This document shows positions 48,894 through 60,546 of a stretch of 64,000 nucleotides of DNA, piece after piece (the stretch's first letter is position 1; every line of letters starts with the position of its first letter). The notes under the pieces are model-generated. The model was not told the origin of the DNA, made no database searches, and saw nothing but the letters and a program-made list of their open reading frames with translations. Made by a program: the position numbers and the translations under genes. The stretch is from NCBI RefSeq assembly GCF_964204645.1, contig NC_134027.1:6870485-6934484 (forward strand), in the 5' to 3' direction. The stretch comes from Tubulanus polymorphus. Its lineage: Eukaryota > Nemertea > Palaeonemertea > Tubulaniformes > Tubulanidae.

Positions 48894-51127
48894 TTAAACA
48901 TCCTTGATCTGATTAACATTTTTCAATTCCCAAGCTGTTAACATTTGTTCACTGAGTTCCCACACAGCATTTGCCAGTCGACTATTTCCTGCTTCGACGG
49001 AGGGTACGCACTGACAGACGTTGTTGAAATATTTTCCTCCAACGGTTTCTAGATCTCGTGATACTGCGCAGTACACCGACGTCGCACAACCTTGTTGCTG
49101 AAAAAAAAAAATTATATCAATTGTCTTCAAGGGTATCTTTAATTTAAAGGAAATTTTTTTTAAAGAATTATCGTTTGGACTAAGGTTTTGGTTCACAGCA
49201 TACCATAGATTTAGTAAATGGCCGAACGACTGTAAAGAGTAACCTGTAGAGCCACCAGTTTCTACTCAGCTGTGTTGACATCATGTTTCCAGGATGCAAT
49301 GAATTACTAGTAACATTACGTTCGTATAAACGAGAATGCAACTGATTCGATGTAAGAATATTCAAGAGCTTCGACAAATTGTAAGCTTTTATTGGCCAGA
49401 ACCCATTCGCAGTTGATGGCGATAGTTTTTCATGGCTCACATTTTCAAAATTTAAATCGGTGAATCTGAAATTGGATAATCCTTTAATGTATGTACCTGC
49501 TAAGTTTAGATCATTTGGGTACATGATGGAAATCCATTTTTGATTCATGAGATTGAAGCCTACCTGTGTGATTCAGAAGAAACCCAGACAACCCGAGATG
49601 GAGACGAACTTATGAGCACATCTTGTAACAAGCTCACCAAATAGAAATGTGATAGATGATTCACTTGGAATGTCGCTTCAAAACCATCGATTGTTTGCTG
49701 CCAAGGCAAGCTAAATACAGCTGCATTCAGAATCAATACATTCAGTGGCCTGTTGGAATATAAATAATTAACAAGGAACTTTAATAAAATCTCGAGAATA
49801 TTACTAGAATACATTACCCGGTAATTGACCGATTGAATAAGGGTATCATTTGTCATACCATCCTTTTGATTTATACGCCTCGGCACACTGTCTGACACTA
49901 TTCAAAGACATCAAATCTATGTGTAAACTTTCCACACGAGCTTTCGGTTGCTCAGTCTTGATTGCATTGATGGCCTCTCTAGCTTTGGCTTCACTTCGAC
50001 ATGCCAATACAACATGCGCCCCCTGTAATGCCAGGGTTCTAGCTGTTTCAAATCCTTAAAAGGAAAAATTTCTGTTTTATTTCTTTGAATTCAACCCAAG
50101 AATGATAAGTGTCGCTTACAAAATTCTGAAAAGTCTGAAGTAGGTTGGCCACTTTCCACCCATATACAAATCCCCTGAGTCTTCCCTGTATTTTCCATGA
50201 TTACACAAAAATCCATGAGTGAATTTGAGAAATGTCTAGGTTTAGAATATTACAATTCAATAATGATAAATATACACGCAGTCAATAGCATTATCCAAAT
50301 TCCCTGAGTTTTCCAGGTTCTAGATTTTTCTGATGAATAATAATGCACAATTACCAATTCCACAGTTACCACCAGTAATCAGTACATATTTTGAATGAAA
50401 GTCTCTGCCTTGAACAATCTGTAAACCGGTGCTACTGCCATCGTATTTCTGACGTAATTCTCGAATTTTTGTTTCATCGATGTCTTCAATGGCAAATGCT
50501 AGTCGTGGATCTGTGAATGTTGTCTTCTGATTGATATGACTTAAATAATTGAATAATCAATAAATCATAAGTTATCATTCGATTGAGAATAAATGTTTTC
50601 AACAGGATGGCGTGGAAAAATACGAATGATACATACTCAACAAAATATGCAATCCCTTCATCAGTTACTTTGATTTCCCAACCATAAGGAAGTTCTGAAA
50701 ATGTTAACATTATTGTCATTGCAAACAGTTCAATAATAGCCTGGTTTCAAATGGATTGTTGTTTCTTAATAATGTCAATACTAACCTCCAGCAACTCGTT
50801 TCTTCTTTCCAGTCTTTGGATTCTCCCATTGAGTAATTTCTAAATTATGACTGTAAATTAGAAAGAAACCCTATGTGAACTTAGTAGTTACCGTTTTACG
50901 GGATAGATGGCACCGCTGTCGAACCCGGAAGTAAACTATTTTCGTCGATAACGGGACGGATTGCTCAAAGATGAAGCGTTCCACGTGATGGCTTTGACTA
51001 CGAAACGATAAAATAAATACTCTTCTTACTTAGCATAATAGACACGACCGTCTAATGTGACCCTTTCTTCCCAGCCAGCTGGAATTTCATCCTCGCTGTC
51101 CGTATCTTCGACTATGGAGGCCGCCAT
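48894..51127 (-). CDS. WWOX: WW domain-containing oxidoreductase
   Basis: WWOX joins two WW domains to a short-chain dehydrogenase/reductase; in vertebrates it is a tumour suppressor that binds PPxY proteins. Exons in transcript order: 51127-51030, 50850-50786, 50694-50637, 50539-50355, 50054-49859, 49749-49564, 49465-49204, 49097-48894 (TAA). Lengths sum to 1254, giving 417 residues; human has 414, and co-linearity is close. WW1 (about 16-52) has [17 protein letters not shown] and QWENP. The basic patch GKKKRV matches the nuclear-localisation position. WW2 (about 55-88) is atypical: its second signature position is Phe (TTFTDPR) instead of Trp (human has Tyr). The SDR part shows TGGNCGIG for cofactor binding, NAA at LNAAVF, the Ser-containing VSSESHR, and the catalytic pair Tyr291/Lys295 in AYNLSK (human 293/297). 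All key residues are intact. It shares a 191 bp upstream interval with DCLRE1C. Confidence 0.96.
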
Positions 51128-51318
51128 GATTATTATTATCCCATGACAGATCAGATAGAGGGTAGCTCCGAGGATATCCAAATCATTGCGTCCACGAGCC
51201 GCATCATAAATTCTGAGATCACTTTTTCAAAACAATGGCGGCTTCTTCGAGTAGTTTATTCTTGTCCAGTTCATGACGTTACACATGATTTTGACCAGTC
51301 TACCAGTAATATTCCAAT
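51128..51318. promoter_or_regulatory. Bidirectional promoter interval between WWOX and DCLRE1C
   Basis: Only 191 bp separate the two start codons, which point away from each other, so both 5' UTRs and core promoters must overlap or lie here. A good YY1-type motif, ACAATGGCGGC, is at 51232-51242 on the + strand. A second ATGGCGGC is the WWOX start codon itself on the - strand. No TATA box is evident, as usual for such promoters. Confidence 0.65.
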
Positions 51319-54300
51319 ATGAGTTCCTTTCCCGGACGCATGCAGGAGTATGCTGCTATCAGCATCGACCGTTTTGATGGTGATAATTTGAAGTCGACCG
51401 CTTTTTTTCTGTCGCATTATCATGGAGGTTAGTCACGAATTTATGTATCACTTAGTGGGTCTTAGAAAGATAAAAACAAGGAATAATACTTTATTGAGAT
51501 AAAATTTTATTTTCACACAAAATCTACTACTAAATTAAAAATCGGTGGTTTGGTTTGGAAGTGTTGATATTTTTTGGTCATGTTTTCATCAATAAATAGG
51601 AAAACATATCAAAGTTAAGTGCTTTGAACTAAACTGAGTAGATAGACTTTACTGTTTGACGGAAGCTTTTTTCTTAACAACAAAAACCAGAGCTTGGTAA
51701 TGTAGATAATATTGCTGGAATTCGTGTTTATTAGTTTCGCTTGTTGCGCCTTCTTTTTCCAAATCTTCCAGAAATGTTTCCATGCCCTTGAATTCTTCAT
51801 GTTCCAGGTAGTCCTTGCGGAAGCACACGAAAACATAGCCCCCTGTAGAAAGATAAAATAGTCATTTATTGATTGAAAATAATCGAGCATTGTGTTTCAA
51901 CTTGTTTTGTTGCCACTTTATCTTACCTGGTTTGCACATTCGCAATAGTTCCCGAATGGCTTTATATTTTGCTTGTCCTGGAACTATTGTACCACAACAA
52001 GTCACATGATCGAAGGACTCTGAAATTAAAATCATCCATCAAATTTCCATGGATATTTTGCACTCTGACTTTTCATTATGATTGATTGAATTGTTCTCAA
52101 GGACCAACAGTGTTCTTTAAGTTATTTTTATCACAAGTATGAATATTAAAGAACATATACAAAGTTTATTAGCATACTATATATTTTTTACCAGTTTCAA
52201 CTGTGCAAGGTTTATTGGCTGATAGATATTCATGATAATATTTAGAGTATAGTTTATTATCCATCGCCACTTTTGCCATCCCTGTTGATGGATCAATGGC
52301 ATCCATTCGACCATTGAAACCTAACTTTCTCAGCTGAAAATGTTTGACACTTTTGAGTTTGATAATATTTGAATTAAAGTGGTTAATTATAGAATATTTC
52401 AGACCTTGTCATGCAAAGCTTACCTCTTCTGCTACTAGACCAGTGCCAGCCCCAACATCAATGAGCGAACAGTTTTTATCAGAAACATACTGATTTACCA
52501 TCTGCGCAGTGTGATATGGTGCCTGGTATGAAGCGCTCTTCACATCCTGAAATATCCAAAACACTGATGTATTTGAAATTTTATAGAAAAATATGTTACA
52601 TGTAGTATATGTTTTGTGTATTATACCCGACCTGGTTCTGTCACAGGGACTATTGCGATCTAAAGAAGCTGTCAACCAGACTCTGGGCAAATTGCCCCAG
52701 TTCTAGCTTAGTGTCTAGATGAAGATGAAGTCTGTCAGTAGGAATGAATGGGATTCTAAAAGTGCATTTGTTATAGGCCTACCTGATTATAACCATCATT
52801 CCAGTCATCAAAGATTTTGTTCCTGGTTGCACGATCTTTACATGCCATGAGTTTTTGGAATAGATCTACAGTTTCCTGACCAGTTTTCGACATGATGGCT
52901 GTGATGTGTTTGACACTAGAAGGCTTGTGATAAAGTGAACCTGCTGATATACAGGGTGTCTCAGAAAATGTGTTACCCAAGCTTTAGGATTAATAAATTC
53001 ATCAACCATAGTTTTTATTTTTTTTTCGGGGGTGAGGTTGGTAGACTTGGATGTTTGTTCGAAGATGAAGTGTTGAAATGCAATGATACGTCATGTATGG
53101 CTGAGCACTTGCATTTTTTCTGAATGGCCATATGAATGGAGTCGAACCAAATACTATTGATTTTTCCGTCGAGAATCTTTATCGTTAAATGACCAGCCTG
53201 CCATTTGAGACATTGATTTGAAATCTCACAAAATCACTGGATTTCATTCCTTGTGATATTTTCCTATGGGCAATTGTAAATATATTTTAATCATAGAATA
53301 ATGAAACTTAACACATTTTTTGAGACGCCCTGTAAATAAAGACTGTTATCAAGTAGACTTTGAATACTGGAACCATACACAAAAACCTCTATTCATTATC
53401 TTCATTGGTTAAACTGAATAGGCAAACAATAGTAGTGTTCACATTACATTATTTAGAACGGTCTAAATTTGGTACATTCCAATTGTATATGATACCAGGA
53501 AGGCTAATGAGGGAAGTGAGAATTCAGTGATAATCCACCAGGATCGCTAGCGGCACTGGGTTACCGCGCTTCAATTTCCTTCTACATTTCAATCCAAGTC
53601 AACTTTTCCGATTAGTAAACCGTTTTTCAGTGAAATCAATATACTGAGTGAGAAAGGGAATCTTATGGAATCGTTCCATTTACGACGTGTTCCAATTTGG
53701 ACCGACCTAAAAGACTGACCAAGGTCCATTCAAAATACTAAGTGCGACGTGATAACTATCTGTTGCCAATGTAGCAACGCGTAGGCTATGTGAATGCGCA
53801 CTCTTGATTTGGCTGTTCTAAATTTGTCATGTTCCTAACTAATTATAGTGTGTACAAATCTCTGCATGGAGCGTTTGCCATTAGGATCAGCCACATATCA
53901 GGTTAGGACAAAAAGAAAAACTCAAAGAAGATACTTATATTACAAAATTTTATTTCGTACAATGAATAATAATGAAATGAAAATTTGAAAATGGAATGAA
54001 TTGTAGGGTCGTAGTTTCATACGAAAAAGTAAACTGAAATTTGGTGGTTTGGTTGCTATTGTTACATTATCATGTTTTCAATGGGGAAAAAGTTCAAACT
54101 TAACTTCTTAAGTGCTTTGAACTAAACAACTGGACTAAGATATATTTTACTGTTTGACGGAAGCTTTTTTCTTAACAACAAAAACCAGAGCTTGGTAATG
54201 TAGATAATATTGCTGGAATTCGTGTTTGTTAGTTTCACTTGTTGCGCCTTCTTTTTCCAAATCTTCCAGGAATGTTTCCATGCCCTTGAATTCTTCTTGT

Positions 54301-57300
54301 TCGAGGTAGTCCTTGCGGAAGCACACAAAAACATAGCCCCCTTTAGAAAGATAAAATAGTCATTTATTGATTGTGAATAATCGAGCATTGTGTTTCAACT
54401 AGTTTTTATAGCTACTTTATCCTACCTGGTTTGCACATTCGCAATAGTTCCCGAATGGCTTTATATTTAGCGTGTCCTGGAACTATTGTACCACAACAAG
54501 TCACATGATCAAAGGACTCTGAAATTGAAATTGTCCATTGAATTTCCAAGGATATCTGGGGTGGATCTAGGGTCTGAATTAAATTGAATTGCAGGGAGGG
54601 GTGGAGCCCTAAAACAGGGCATGTCATAAACTTCTTATCGGAAAACATTAGCTCATTTTTGGAATTACACAGAACAAGCTTATGAATCTAAACTTTTTAG
54701 TTATCAGTTTAACAATTTTCATTTTCCTGTAAAATTTCTTGGTAACTAGACATTTTTAGGAGGGGGGGGGGGTATGCACCCCCTGCACCCTCCCCTTAGA
54801 TCTGCCCCTGGATACTTTGTACTCTTGAAATCTTCTCCAAGGCCAATATTATCTGTGCACTAATTTTCATGACAAGTTTGAATATCAAAGAATATGTACA
54901 AAGTATGTTAGTATAATATGTTTTTACCTGTTTCAACTGTGCAAGGTTTATCGGCTGATAAATATTCGTTATAATATTTAGTGTATAGTTCATTATCCAT
55001 CGCCACTTTTGCCAACCCAGTTGATGGATCAATGGCATCCATACGACCATCAAAACCTAACTTTCTCAGCTGAAAATGTTAGACACCTTTGAGTTTGAAA
55101 GTATTTGAATTAAACTGGTTAATTATAGAATATTTCAGACCTTGTCATGCAAAGCTTACCTCTTCTGCTACTAGACCAGTGCCAGCCCCAACATCAATGA
55201 GCGAACAGTTTTTATCAGAAACATACTGATTTACCATCTGCGCAGTGTGATATGGTGCCTGGTATGAAGCGCTCTTCACATCCTGAAATTCCCAAAACAC
55301 TGACGCATTTGAAATTTTGTAGAAAAATATTTTATGTGATATCGATGTATTGATAGGCCTGGTTCTTGTGTTACAATACGGTTGATAGCTGTACATCTAA
55401 ATTAGTTCAAGCTTCCTCTAGAATGAATACGAAGTCTGTCATTAGGAATGAATAAATAGGACCCTAAAAGTGCATTTGTTACATTCTGATCTAACCTACC
55501 CTATTATAGCCATTATTCCAGTCATCATAGATGCTGTTCATGTCCATATGATCTTTGCATTTCATGAGTTTGTGGAATTGATCTACGGTTTCCATACCAG
55601 TTCTCGACATGATGGCTGTGATGTGTTTGACACCAGATGGTATATAAACTGAACCTGCTGTATTATATAGGCTTAAAACCAGTTATCAAGTAGACTTTGA
55701 ATGACTGGAACCAAACACAATAACCTTTGTCCGTAATCCTCATTGGTTAAACCATGGACTCTAAAACGAAGTCCATGGTTAAACTGGATAGGAAAATGAT
55801 AGAACCAATTCAAACCATTAATGTCTTAGTCGGGAAATAATTGAACTTTGCCTTCGAATTACTTGAATATAGAGAACCAAGTGCCATTAGATTTATGAAT
55901 TGGGAGTACCGGTAGTGCAAAAACCATGAACACCTAGCCATGGAAAATTTCCACTGATAAGTTAGTTAGTTAGTTAGTAAATCGTTGCTGTCGTATGTAC
56001 ATTATTTTCTTGACATTTGATATAAAGCATGAAAACATTGGAATTTTAGTGTTAAATCTATGTAAAAAGGGAAGAAATATTTTCTAGCAATCTGTGCATG
56101 ATAGAAAAAAATGGTATAAGTGTCAAACCGAAAAATCAAGTACTGTGAGAAAAAGCTCTTCCTAGCCTAATTCTCCAGTACATATCAGTTAGGAAGATCA
56201 TTCAATGTATTTCAAAATGCTAGTCTATGCCCGGCTCTTATAGTAATCATATATTATGATTTTCTAATTCAGATCATGTCGTTGGTCTGTCGGATCCGAA
56301 ATTTGTCAGGAGATTGCAGGAAGAGTAAGTCTCACCGAGCCTTCTTAGCGTAAATTAGAAATTGCATATAACGCATACCAGTTTTCTAATATCCTTCACA
56401 GTAAGAATTGCCTCAGGTACATGTGCAATGTTTTTCTATTTTTCCATCTGTTTTCCAGCAACGATTTCCATCTTTATTGTTCTGATATTACGAAAACGCT
56501 GATTCTTGCAAATGACGATTACAAACCTATCAAACCACATATTGTAAGTGTTTATAGCAAACTACTGTGTTGTGCACCAAAATGTAGTATAAAAAAAATC
56601 TACAGATGCTAAAAAACTTTCTAAAAAGAGAAATATAAGTCACCGAACATTTGATACAGTTTTTATCAAAAATCCTTTCATTTTCTGTTTTCCAGGTGGC
56701 CTTACCAGTTGATCAGTCGACAACTATCAAGATACCTGATCTAGAGAGTTGCATTGGTCAGGTAGGCCTATGTAGTAGTACATATTTCAATTTGCCTTTC
56801 AAATCATTTCCCCAGTTATGATTCAAATATGTTTGTGTCCAAAATTAACCTTTTTTCGTTTACATCAAACATTCAGAACAAATACGATTTGATGCTATTT
56901 ATTTTGTTAGGATGTTGTAGTCACATTGATACCAGCTGGGCATTGTCTTGGATCAGTGATGTAAGTATGAATCACAAACTAAAACTGACGTTAAGTATGA
57001 ATATCAAGTTTTATAAAGTTGAATGAAATTTTTAGGTTCCTATTTGAAGGATGTGAAGGCACCGTGTTATATACAGGTGATTTTAGACTACCTCTTGGAA
57101 GCGCTTCAAGAATTCAACATCTTCACTCAGGAAGCAGGTACGTTACACCCCAAGATTTTTATGATAAAATCTCAATATTGAATTATGGTGTATCACGGGG
57201 ATACAAAACTTTCATTAATTCCAACAAATTTTTTCTTTGGTTGTGTTTCAGACCAAAATCTCTAAAAAGTATGTACGTTGATACAACATTTTGTGTTCCT

Positions 57301-60300
57301 GAAGCTCGTCACATTCCAGAAAGAGACAAAAGTGTTAACGCTGTTATTTCTCTGGTTGATGAATGGATACACATCAGTCCCAGTCACTCTGTTCATCTGC
57401 AGTGTCGAGCAAGGTTCAGTTATGAATACTTATACGAAAGACTCTATGATACATTCAAGATGAAGGTTAGTTCAGTTCAAGAGAAATGGTGAGAGGTTCT
57501 GTGTACTGTATGGACCCATTGTAAATCTAGTAACTTAATAATGATAAAACTATCCTTTTTAGGTTCACGTTCAGCCGTTTCAACTTGCCCAATATGGAAA
57601 TTTACCCTTTGTTTCAAAGTTCTTGACCACAGATCCCTCAGAGACCAAGATCCACTCATGCTATTGCGGGGTAAGCTATTACATCTACCGGCACCTAACT
57701 AATTGATTGAATTACCCTTTGTTTAGAAATTAAGATTAATTCTTAAGCAGAAATATGAGGTGGCTATTAGAACTACTCATCAGATTTATCCATTTCATTT
57801 TAGAAAATTGACCGTAAAACGAAAGATCGTTTGCCTTGTGGACATGTACCAAAAGATAGTTCTGATTTGAAATTACGTCTCATCAAACCTTCAACAATGT
57901 GGTTCACTAATCGTGCTGTGTCAAGGAATGATATAATAGTGAATACTACAGGAATTGATCGTGTTTGCTACTGCTTCCATTCGTCCGATACCGAGATTCA
58001 AGATTTTGTTTCATACTTGAAACCAGATAACGTCTATCCTAATGTAAAACCAGCTACTTGTTCAATGAATACGGTAATTATTTTATGTATGTATGCGGTG
58101 GTCCGCAAAGGGTATTTTTTGCTACAATGTAGAAATACTTGTTCTTTCTGATATTAGTTGCTACAAAACCAACTGCTTGACAAGGAAAAATATATTGATT
58201 TAAATCATTGTTTGATTTAGGTGGAAGAAAGACTTCAGAAATTTCTTACTACTGAAAATTTTGACCAAAACCTTCCTGTTACTCCCTGTAAAGATGAACA
58301 ACCTCTTGGGATGATTAGGAAGCGTAGGCTTTCTAGCGGTAAGTGAGGCATTCCAAAATGAACAAAATTCTGTAGTTTGTAGTTACCGGTAGATATGCAA
58401 TTATTTCAATCATTTCACAATTTTAGGTGTTGTATATCGAAGTTGTGACGATGACGATGACTTTGATTCAGGAGTGATCTCCAGCAATAAGAGAGTATGT
58501 CAAAAGTCCTCGACAGAAAATGATTTATTCATTTCACCGACGAAAAGTGTGGCCAGTTTTGGGTCGGAATATCGATCGTTCAGTGGGAGTGAACTCGACT
58601 TGTTCAGCGACGAAGAGAAAGAAGATGCTGGTGCAAAGTCAGCAAGTCAGCAAAGTCTTCTAGCTTATATAAGTGATGATGAGGACTGCCTAGACCGAAT
58701 AGATAATGCTGTAGGGAATGCTGAATGTAATGAAAGGAAATCGCTCGAGAGGACACAAACTGGAATTGATGGAAATGGAATTGAATTTCAGAAAGATTCT
58801 AACACCTCGGAGAGCTGTCAAGATGAGTGTATAAAGGATGATTTGGAGGTTGGTCGTTGTGTTAATTATGAAACTGGTAAATATAACATGGATTTTGATA
58901 ATAAGTCTCAGGAGAATGAAAATGCTATTTCTACTAATGATTCTGAATTGTTGAAGGTGACTACTGAAAGTGATCCAAAGGATAATGGTAGCATTGTTGG
59001 CGATGAGATTGATCTTTCAAAGGTTGTAAACGACAGTGTTGATACTGATAAAAGTAATGTGAATCAAGTTGTTGGATCAGTGCAATCCAAGGATAATGAA
59101 CTCGAAAAAAAAAAAGGTGATAGTCATACTGTTAAAAATGATACGGAAATGGTGAAACCAGGGACTTCCATGACAATATGTGATGAAGATGATGATGTTA
59201 TGTGCACTGGTGAAAAACTAGGCAATCCTCAGTTTGTTCGTATTGCTATTGGAAATGAAAATAAGTTAGTTCCTTTAAGCGTTGCTCAACATTTGATAAA
59301 AAGTAATAGATTTAGTAAACGCATAGTCAAACAGGGATTTGTTATTCCATCGGTGAAAAAACATAAAGCGAAACCTAATTTCATCGATCTGACTGAAGAT
59401 TCGGATGATATTTCCGAAAATGGAGATGAAAATTTGACGTTTTTCGATGCCGAGGAAGAACACGATGTTACGGATGAAGAAGCGCCTGGGAGTATTTATT
59501 CGAATGAGGTGATAATACCAGCAGATGGAGGAACTCAAAATTTTCCTCGCAGAATCGATCGAGGTATGCATTGCATTAGTAGTGACGAGGGAGGAGATTC
59601 AGATTTGAATGAACATGAATTTCTAACGATGGATGACGATGAAAGTGACAATTCACAGCAATTCATATCCACACACTGCTGTCGCTATGTTAATGCTGTT
59701 GCGGACAATGATATGTTTGATTCAACTGATTATGACACCGATCATGACGATGATACGTCTATTTTAGCGAAGCACAGGAATTCATATAGTTCGATCAGAG
59801 CGTCTGAAAAATATGGACAACATACACGGCCGATTGAAAGCCATAGTAAAGAATATTACAGATCGTTGCCTAAACCTTCAACGAATGTGAATGATGATAG
59901 CATTATTGTGTTAGATTCGGATTCTGATAGCGAAATTGATACAAACAGGAAAATCAGTGATACCACTGAATATATTGGTGCTGAACGGGTGTCTGATATT
60001 AAGAATTCTTGTATTAAAGTGGGACGTGATGATTTGAATCACTGCATATCTCAACAATCACATAGTTCAGCTGATGATACTGAATTAAATGGCAGAAATG
60101 TTACAAATCAAAAGTTGGAAAAAACGAGTACTGATACCGGTGAATGTTTATCACTTGTAACAACAGAAAAGGTGAATTGGGCAGAATTGGAGCGAACAAT
60201 GTCAGGGTCGCATTCTGATTGGCCGACAATCAATTGTACCACAACTGATGGCGATGATGTGGTTAGTGAAATGAAAAATCACGGTACCGTTTTGGATAAA

Positions 60301-60546
60301 AGTGTTGAATCAGTTAATGACGTTAGTAATGAAATCTTCTTGAACGAAACTGTTGCAATAGAATATGACCAAGATACAACTATAGAACTTGATGCACCGC
60401 AATCTAGTACCGGTAGTGGAGAAGAGAAATTATCTAATGAAAGACAGGAATCTACCGAAAAAAAAAACAATGAAGAGAAAAGGCATTTACTTGTTGCTGA
60501 GACCGAAATAAATGTCTCGGAGAACTCAGTTCAGACTGCTGAATGA
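51319..60546 (+). CDS. DCLRE1C: Protein Artemis, MBL/beta-CASP nuclease of end joining
   Basis: Artemis opens hairpins and trims DNA ends in non-homologous end joining. Exons: 51319-51427, 56273-56324, 56459-56543, 56696-56761, 56911-56960, 57036-57137, 57252-57465, 57563-57670, 57804-58073, 58221-58338, 58427-60546 (TGA). Total 3294 nt gives 1097 residues. The start [20 protein letters not shown] matches the family start. Metal ligands fall at human numbering: H33, H35, D37, H38 (HYHGDH), H115 (PAGHC), D136 (YTGDFR), D165 (YVDTTFC). The beta-CASP zinc site is intact (H228, H257, C259, C274), as is the HSS motif histidine (H321). The catalytic domain ends near residue 350. The tail of about 700 residues, mostly one 2.1 kb exon, is Asp/Ser/Glu-rich and predicted disordered; human Artemis totals 692. 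It carries FIDLTED (710-716) and [10 protein letters not shown] (883-892). Intron 1 (4.8 kb) contains two genes on the other strand. Confidence 0.95.
51506..51511 (-). terminator. Poly(A) signal of METTL27-like copy A
   Basis: AATAAA on the - strand about 140 bp after the stop; a second one is at 51490-51495. Confidence 0.55.
51649..52893 (-). CDS. METTL27-like methyltransferase, copy A (nested)
   Basis: Class I SAM-dependent methyltransferase resembling METTL27 (WBSCR27); the substrate is unknown. Exons in transcript order: 52893-52783, 52546-52424, 52333-52192, 52019-51927, 51842-51649 (TAA). They total 663 nt, 220 residues, in frame throughout. Motif I is [14 protein letters not shown] (Asp67 to Gly73), motif [10 protein letters not shown], then [13 protein letters not shown] and [16 protein letters not shown], all as expected for the fold. 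[10 protein letters not shown] near the N terminus is the family's DxWaxxYD-type signature. Start MSKTGQETV at 52893 is chosen because copy B starts at the same point; the in-frame upstream ATG at 52980 falls in a transposon-derived insert. It lies entirely inside DCLRE1C intron 1, antisense to it. It could be any METTL27-like paralogue; orthology is not proved. Confidence 0.88.
52952..53332. mobile_element. Mariner-type MITE upstream of METTL27-like copy A
   Basis: A 381 bp element. Ends CAGGGTGTCTCAGAAAATGT and (complement of the right end) CAGGGCGTCTCAAAAAATGT are inverted repeats, and each end is flanked by TA, the Tc1/mariner target duplication. It is absent from the equivalent place upstream of copy B, so it inserted after the gene duplication. 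No transposase frame. Confidence 0.82.
53491..53660. repeat. Dispersed repeat, copy 2 of a pair
   Basis: Partner of 48107-48286 in the same orientation. It lies between the two METTL27-like genes. Confidence 0.65.
53949..53954 (-). terminator. Poly(A) signal of METTL27-like copy B
   Basis: AATAAA on the - strand about 195 bp after the copy B stop codon. Confidence 0.5.
54147..55610 (-). CDS. METTL27-like methyltransferase, copy B (nested)
   Basis: Tandem paralogue of copy A, same strand, also inside DCLRE1C intron 1. Exons: 55610-55500, 55282-55160, 55069-54928, 54518-54426, 54340-54147 (TAA). Every exon has exactly the same length as in copy A (111, 123, 142, 93, 194), again giving 220 residues with no stop or frameshift, so both copies look functional. 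Exon 2 is identical to copy A at all 123 bases. Exon 1 is strongly diverged: [20 protein letters not shown], against [20 protein letters not shown] in copy A, and even more different afterwards. The last two exons differ by only a few residues (for example GHAKYK against GQAKYK). An insertion of about 254 bp sits in the intron between exons 3 and 4. Motifs I and II are intact. Confidence 0.88.
54556..54809. mobile_element. hAT-like MITE in METTL27-like copy B intron 3
   Basis: Present in copy B, absent from the same intron of copy A. The left end CTGGGGTGGATCTAGG and the complement of the right end, CAGGGGCAGATCTAAGG, are inverted. Flanks GGATAT and GGATAC look like a target duplication of GGATAT, which copy A has once. 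Contains a G run of 13. The hAT assignment rests on the GGGGCAGATC-type end. Confidence 0.6.
55748..55783. repeat. Small hairpin insertion upstream of METTL27-like copy B
   Basis: AACCATGGACT, nine bases, then AGTCCATGGTT form a perfect inverted repeat. The sequence upstream of copy A runs straight through this point (GGTTAAACTG), so about 31 bp were added in copy B with GGTTAAA repeated on both sides. Confidence 0.6.

Follow-up and report, generated by a model that had tools for sequence, protein, structure and literature searches.

In the window, a 64,000-nucleotide stretch of DNA of the nemertean Tubulanus polymorphus, two complete five-exon genes encoding METTL27-like methyltransferases (copies A and B) are arranged in tandem, on the opposite strand, within intron 1 of DCLRE1C (Artemis). 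We consider the following history likely: (i) DNA-level copying would have placed a METTL27-like gene, complete with introns and upstream region, in the first DCLRE1C intron in antisense orientation; (ii) the guest would then have been duplicated head to tail within this intron, with Artemis splicing over both copies; (iii) after the duplication, gene conversion would have passed sequence between A and B, mainly over exon 2, which carries the SAM-binding motif; and (iv) exon 1, the presumed N-terminal substrate-binding cap, would have drifted faster, mostly in copy A. We infer this order of events from the features listed below.

51319..51427, + strand: coding exon 1 of DCLRE1C (Artemis), 109 nt, from the ORF start to a donor GT at 51428; alignable to human Artemis
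51428..56272, + strand: intron 1 of DCLRE1C (the host intron), 4845 bp, GT-AG; HxHxDH motif rebuilt on joining
56273-56324, 56459-56543, 56696-56761, 56911-56960, 57036-57137, 57252-57465, 57563-57670, 57804-58073, 58221-58338, 58427-60546, + strand: coding exons 2-11 of DCLRE1C; exon 2 starts after an AG
52893-52783, 52546-52424, 52333-52192, 52019-51927, 51842-51649, - strand: METTL27-like copy A, five coding exons, 220 aa (spliced ORF, Pfam, PDB 7qcb)
55610-55500, 55282-55160, 55069-54928, 54518-54426, 54340-54147, - strand: METTL27-like copy B, five coding exons, 220 aa (spliced ORF, Pfam)
51506-51511 and 51490-51495, - strand: two AATAAA signals 3' of copy A, separated from Artemis exon 1 by at least 62 nt
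53949-53954, - strand: AATAAA signal 3' of copy B (motif)
49560..51127, - strand: part of a WWOX-like neighbour gene (Pfam WW and adh_short)

The guest genes and their mosaic divergence

By their predicted exons, both guests lie wholly between Artemis exons 1 and 2. The earlier note had described two complete methyltransferase genes antisense within Artemis intron 1, and this description stands: its coordinates are right, both copies are on the minus strand and their spliced frames are open. In each copy the exons measure 111/123/142/93/194 nt, the introns are of the GT-AG type and there is no internal stop. The Pfam domain Methyltransf_11 was detected above the cut-off in both (1.8e-12 for A and 4.2e-11 for B), while a sub-threshold match to Ku_PK_bind in copy A (0.013) was taken as chance. 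With copy A as the only query, mouse METTL27 (WBSCR27; 7qcb) is the top solved structure (E 4.9e-18; runner-up 0.0012), its alignment covering residues 19-189 and including the DVGAGTG motif within the class I methyltransferase domain. This SAM-binding domain is predicted to be intact in A and B. The likeness to mouse METTL27, the substrate of which is given as unidentified in one report (PMC9240639), is accompanied by a difference, as the genome studied here carries at least 17 genes of the family. The two proteins differ at 21/220 residues (90% identity), and the overall dN/dS values (0.053/0.139) point to coding constraint on the pair. Promoter-type motifs occur upstream of the genes: CCAAT at both A and B and, with the pattern used, a TATA-like motif at B only. 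A and B probably function as separate methyltransferase genes, each having its own promoter and at least one polyadenylation signal.

The divergence between the copies is mosaic. It reaches 0.289 in intron 1, 0.278 in intron 3 and 0.347 in the 3'UTR, and falls to 0.056 in intron 2, 0.095 in intron 4 and zero in exon 2. The 28-35% divergence of intron 1, intron 3 and the 3'UTR suggests that the copies are older than one would judge from the 90% identity of their proteins. The conserved part centres on the following stretch:

52380..52553, - strand: 174 bp of copy A identical to B 55116-55289, covering exon 2 and adjoining intron sequence; probable tract of gene conversion

Identity over 174 bp amid such divergence makes gene conversion between A and B likely, chiefly over the exon with the SAM-binding motif. 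When intron and third-position sites were pooled, an identical run of 92 sites was reached in 0/20000 shuffles, a contrast that intron alignment error may inflate; restricted to third codon positions, the test is not significant, with 2174/20000 shuffles giving an identical run at least as long as the observed one (49 of 221 sites).

Exon 1 is the most divergent between the copies, with 13/37 amino-acid differences vs 6/47 in exon 3 (Fisher p 0.019; dN 0.237 and dS 0.274 in exon 1, dN 0.057 and dS 0.225 in exon 3). Compared with exons 3-5 together (8/142 differences), p falls to 1.1e-5, although conversion in exons 4-5 would exaggerate this contrast. At the nucleotide level, exon 1 (23/111) shows no excess over adjoining non-coding sequence (15/105; p 0.28). 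A further reference is paralogue C (locus L020, C3:6040659-6042276, minus strand), which is located on the same contig as the window and is 69% identical to A. Relative to C, the exon-1 excess is absent for B (p 0.56) and present for A (p 0.03), and the exon-1 sites that differ between A and B include 5 at which only A departs from C, none at which only B does and 8 at which both do. According to the same report (PMC9240639), SAH binding orders the first 50 residues of mouse WBSCR27, which contribute to the substrate site, and by analogy exon 1 plausibly encodes an N-terminal substrate-binding cap, through which the substrates of A and B may have diverged. Since exon 1 shows no excess over non-coding sequence or in the comparison of B with C, relaxed constraint in A fits the data as well as selection does.

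Copies A and B also differ in their upstream regions:

52950..53334, no strand assigned: MITE-like insert of 385 bp upstream of copy A, bounded on each side by TA; inverted ends of 29 nt (90%)
53337..53432, - strand: segment upstream of A that corresponds to B 55674-55802 and contains a CCAAT box (intron self-comparison)

The matching place in copy B is continuous and lacks the insert. Among the 42 matches listed, at least 37 are short ones between the inner end of the insert and other places in the genome, and the element looks like a MITE of the TA-target type. Due to the insert, the CCAAT box is shifted from approximately -136 in B to -515 in A. The regulation of the two copies may differ. 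A short hairpin (55746-55784, 15-nt arms, 93%) adjoins the CCAAT box of copy B.

These features bear on the strongest of the alternatives, namely an ongoing loss of function in one of the copies (A being the likelier), with its CCAAT box displaced and its exon 1 drifting. Only in A does an insert separate the CCAAT box from the start codon, and the exon-1 sites at which a single copy departs from C all fall to A. However, the frame of copy A is open with every splice site intact, and exons 3-5 retain an A vs B dN/dS of 0.024/0.162. We regard decay of A as a possibility to be kept in mind, clearly less probable than the presence of two working copies.

Origin of the tandem pair

Comparison of the host intron with itself revealed a head-to-tail repeat with a unit of approximately 1.9 kb (~51466-53432 and ~53912-55802), upstream region included. 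The matching blocks of A and B are 51508-52056/54012-54555 (87%), 52086-52955/54825-55671 (82%) and 53337-53414/55674-55752 (85%), and similarity at the 3' ends of the units is about 70%. The 479-bp spacer between them (53433-53911) showed no match to either tested flank. Intron 3 of copy B contains additional sequence with a G run (54556-54824), absent in A. The proposal of the earlier note that the duplication took place inside the intron is in keeping with a head-to-tail tandem that includes the promoter side, but the spacer matches neither of the tested flanks, so this part of the history is probable rather than certain.

The tandem could instead have been formed elsewhere and have entered the intron ready-made, a reading to which the unmatched spacer lends some weight, as does the presence of other METTL27-like tandem pairs or clusters in the genome. 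It is opposed by the finding of no second pair with A/B-like sequence and by the position of the next paralogue, C, which is alone in its intron. Entry as a finished pair thus appears unlikely, and duplication in place is preferred.

The same note had pointed to the identical exon lengths of the two genes. These are real for A and B, but they are not special to the pair, as exon boundaries are conserved over 17 family gene models fitted on copy A as template (in which exon 1 is unreliable for L021a, L022a/b, L023b/c, L026, L027 and L029, and the gene end for L022b and L026). The fourth exon measures 93 nt in 17/17 models; the 123-nt exon is found in 13/17 (120 or 126 nt in the rest) and the 142-nt exon in 9/17 (139 or 145 nt in the rest). 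All three lengths occur together in 7/17 models, and deviating lengths differ by multiples of three. This conserved family gene structure rules out equal exon lengths as proof of recent duplication. Since introns at the family positions are kept in A, B and C, the copies would have arisen by copying at the DNA level and not as retrocopies.

The host gene

DCLRE1C forms a single open frame of 1097 aa from 11 coding exons (51319-60546), with GT-AG ends in 10/10 introns. Its first 382 aa match human Artemis (6tt5) with an E value of 4.6e-99, compared with 6.6e-25 or weaker for Apollo and DCLRE1A over the same segment. Judged by this comparison and by the HxHxDH motif at the exon 1/exon 2 junction, the host is Artemis rather than DCLRE1A or Apollo. 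The gene is unbroken by its enlarged intron, as had been suggested. Its start and that of the WWOX-like neighbour are head to head, with approximately 191 bp between the start codons (window 51127-51319), and this spacer is likely a shared promoter.

The annotated exons of DCLRE1C and of A and B do not overlap, and antisense pairing would therefore be possible only with unspliced Artemis pre-mRNA. From the positions of the AATAAA signals after A, its transcript is predicted to terminate no further than some 30-60 nt from Artemis exon 1, and mature host and guest mRNAs should not overlap. It is conceivable that the nested pair regulates Artemis, with convergent transcription or antisense pairing dampening DCLRE1C: host and guests are on opposite strands, the last AATAAA of A is 62 nt from exon 1, and read-through would cross exon 1 and the upstream region shared by WWOX and DCLRE1C. 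Nested genes can, moreover, disturb the splicing of their host, as stated in one report (PMC3192792). This reading is countered by the separation of the exons, by poly(A) signals that terminate A short of exon 1, and by human and mouse nested genes, for which no excess expression divergence is described (PMC8467205). We therefore consider a regulatory role of the pair improbable, and the simplest view is that the guest landed by chance, that same-strand nestings were removed and that Artemis is little affected.

The joining of 51319-51427 to 56273, on which the earlier note had made the nesting depend, is supported at the sequence level. The junction peptide (...LSHYHG from exon 1, followed by DHVVGL from exon 2) rebuilds HxHxDH, and the human Artemis alignment is continuous over 51427/56273. 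A whole-genome search with a 352-aa query (267.8-Mb, 77-contig assembly) found no second Artemis exon 1, its sole hit outside the locus being 35% identical and devoid of the exon-1 part. That this joining is wrong and the genes merely adjacent is thus extremely improbable, as the contiguous alignment and the lack of another exon 1 in the genome both speak against it and no evidence in its favour was found.

Nesting within the METTL27-like family

Nesting in other hosts was observed for two more members of the family. Paralogue C sits in a 2456-bp intron (6040309-6042764) of a plus-strand calcium-channel alpha-2/delta gene; the flanking exons, when joined, match alpha-2/delta-1 in one stretch (7.8e-17), and GT and AG are present at the intron ends. 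By identity and tree path C comes closest to A and B, but no supported clade joins it with them. The second case is the family gene of locus L025 (4134-7061, minus strand), placed between exons of a plus-strand gene similar to acid-sensing channels (L025:1687-9350). This host matches Pfam ASC at profile positions 22-85 and 152-200, and its joined peptide matches acid-sensing channels with 4.1e-16, the splice sites being partly checked; its middle exon alone gave no Pfam match.

Nested METTL27-like loci thus number 3/9 (Artemis, alpha-2/delta and acid-sensing-channel-like hosts), and all three are antisense. Both proportions are within chance, and a strong case for enrichment of nesting in the family was rejected. 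No host was recognised at the other 6 loci in a limited look at approximately 10 kb each (~30 kb for L028), by Pfam searches of chosen ORFs and by reading (L023 by reading alone). The neighbours there are complete GPCRs, BAAT, a complex I subunit, dermatopontin, a PARG end, or nothing recognisable. The METTL27-like genes of L022, L026, L027 and L028 adjoin single-exon rhodopsin-type GPCR genes; identity to one another's reference is 68-71% for the GPCRs of L026 (two), L027 and L028, and 28% for that of L022. The arrangement looks as if METTL27-like and GPCR gene types had been copied together. Near position 8000 of L029, a reading frame was noticed by eye whose small, cysteine-rich peptide product looks secreted. 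A more far-reaching interpretation, in which one METTL27 lineage repeatedly lands antisense in introns of unrelated hosts and the pair in the Artemis intron persists as two enzymes whose SAM-binding core is held identical by conversion while their substrate caps diverge, seems to us doubtful.

At the sequence level, the Artemis/METTL27-like arrangement is a real example of the well-known nesting of genes inside genes, its evolutionary detail being partly unusual. According to the study of human and mouse nested genes cited above, simple nested pairs are on opposite strands in 220/296 human and 193/248 mouse cases, and internal genes are often duplication-derived and typically short and intronless (PMC8467205). 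A 2026 paper finds expression divergence of nested genes no likelier than that of others (PMC13343718). The present guests resemble the internal genes of known pairs in their confinement to a single intron, in their opposite-strand orientation and in their origin by duplication; they differ in having five exons each, in forming a tandem pair within the intron, and in having two relatives nested in other hosts. Searches of a limited literature collection found no paper on DCLRE1C as a host of nested genes and nothing relevant on an expansion of methyltransferase-like protein 27.

The locus provides a clean case of multi-exon duplicates inside an intron of a DNA-repair gene that is left undamaged. 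Together with the two other nested relatives, it constitutes a small system for studying how guests reach introns and why those on the opposite strand persist, and for asking whether conversion holds an enzyme core constant while the substrate cap changes. A large natural METTL27-like family with variable N-termini could also help to find the METTL27 substrate.
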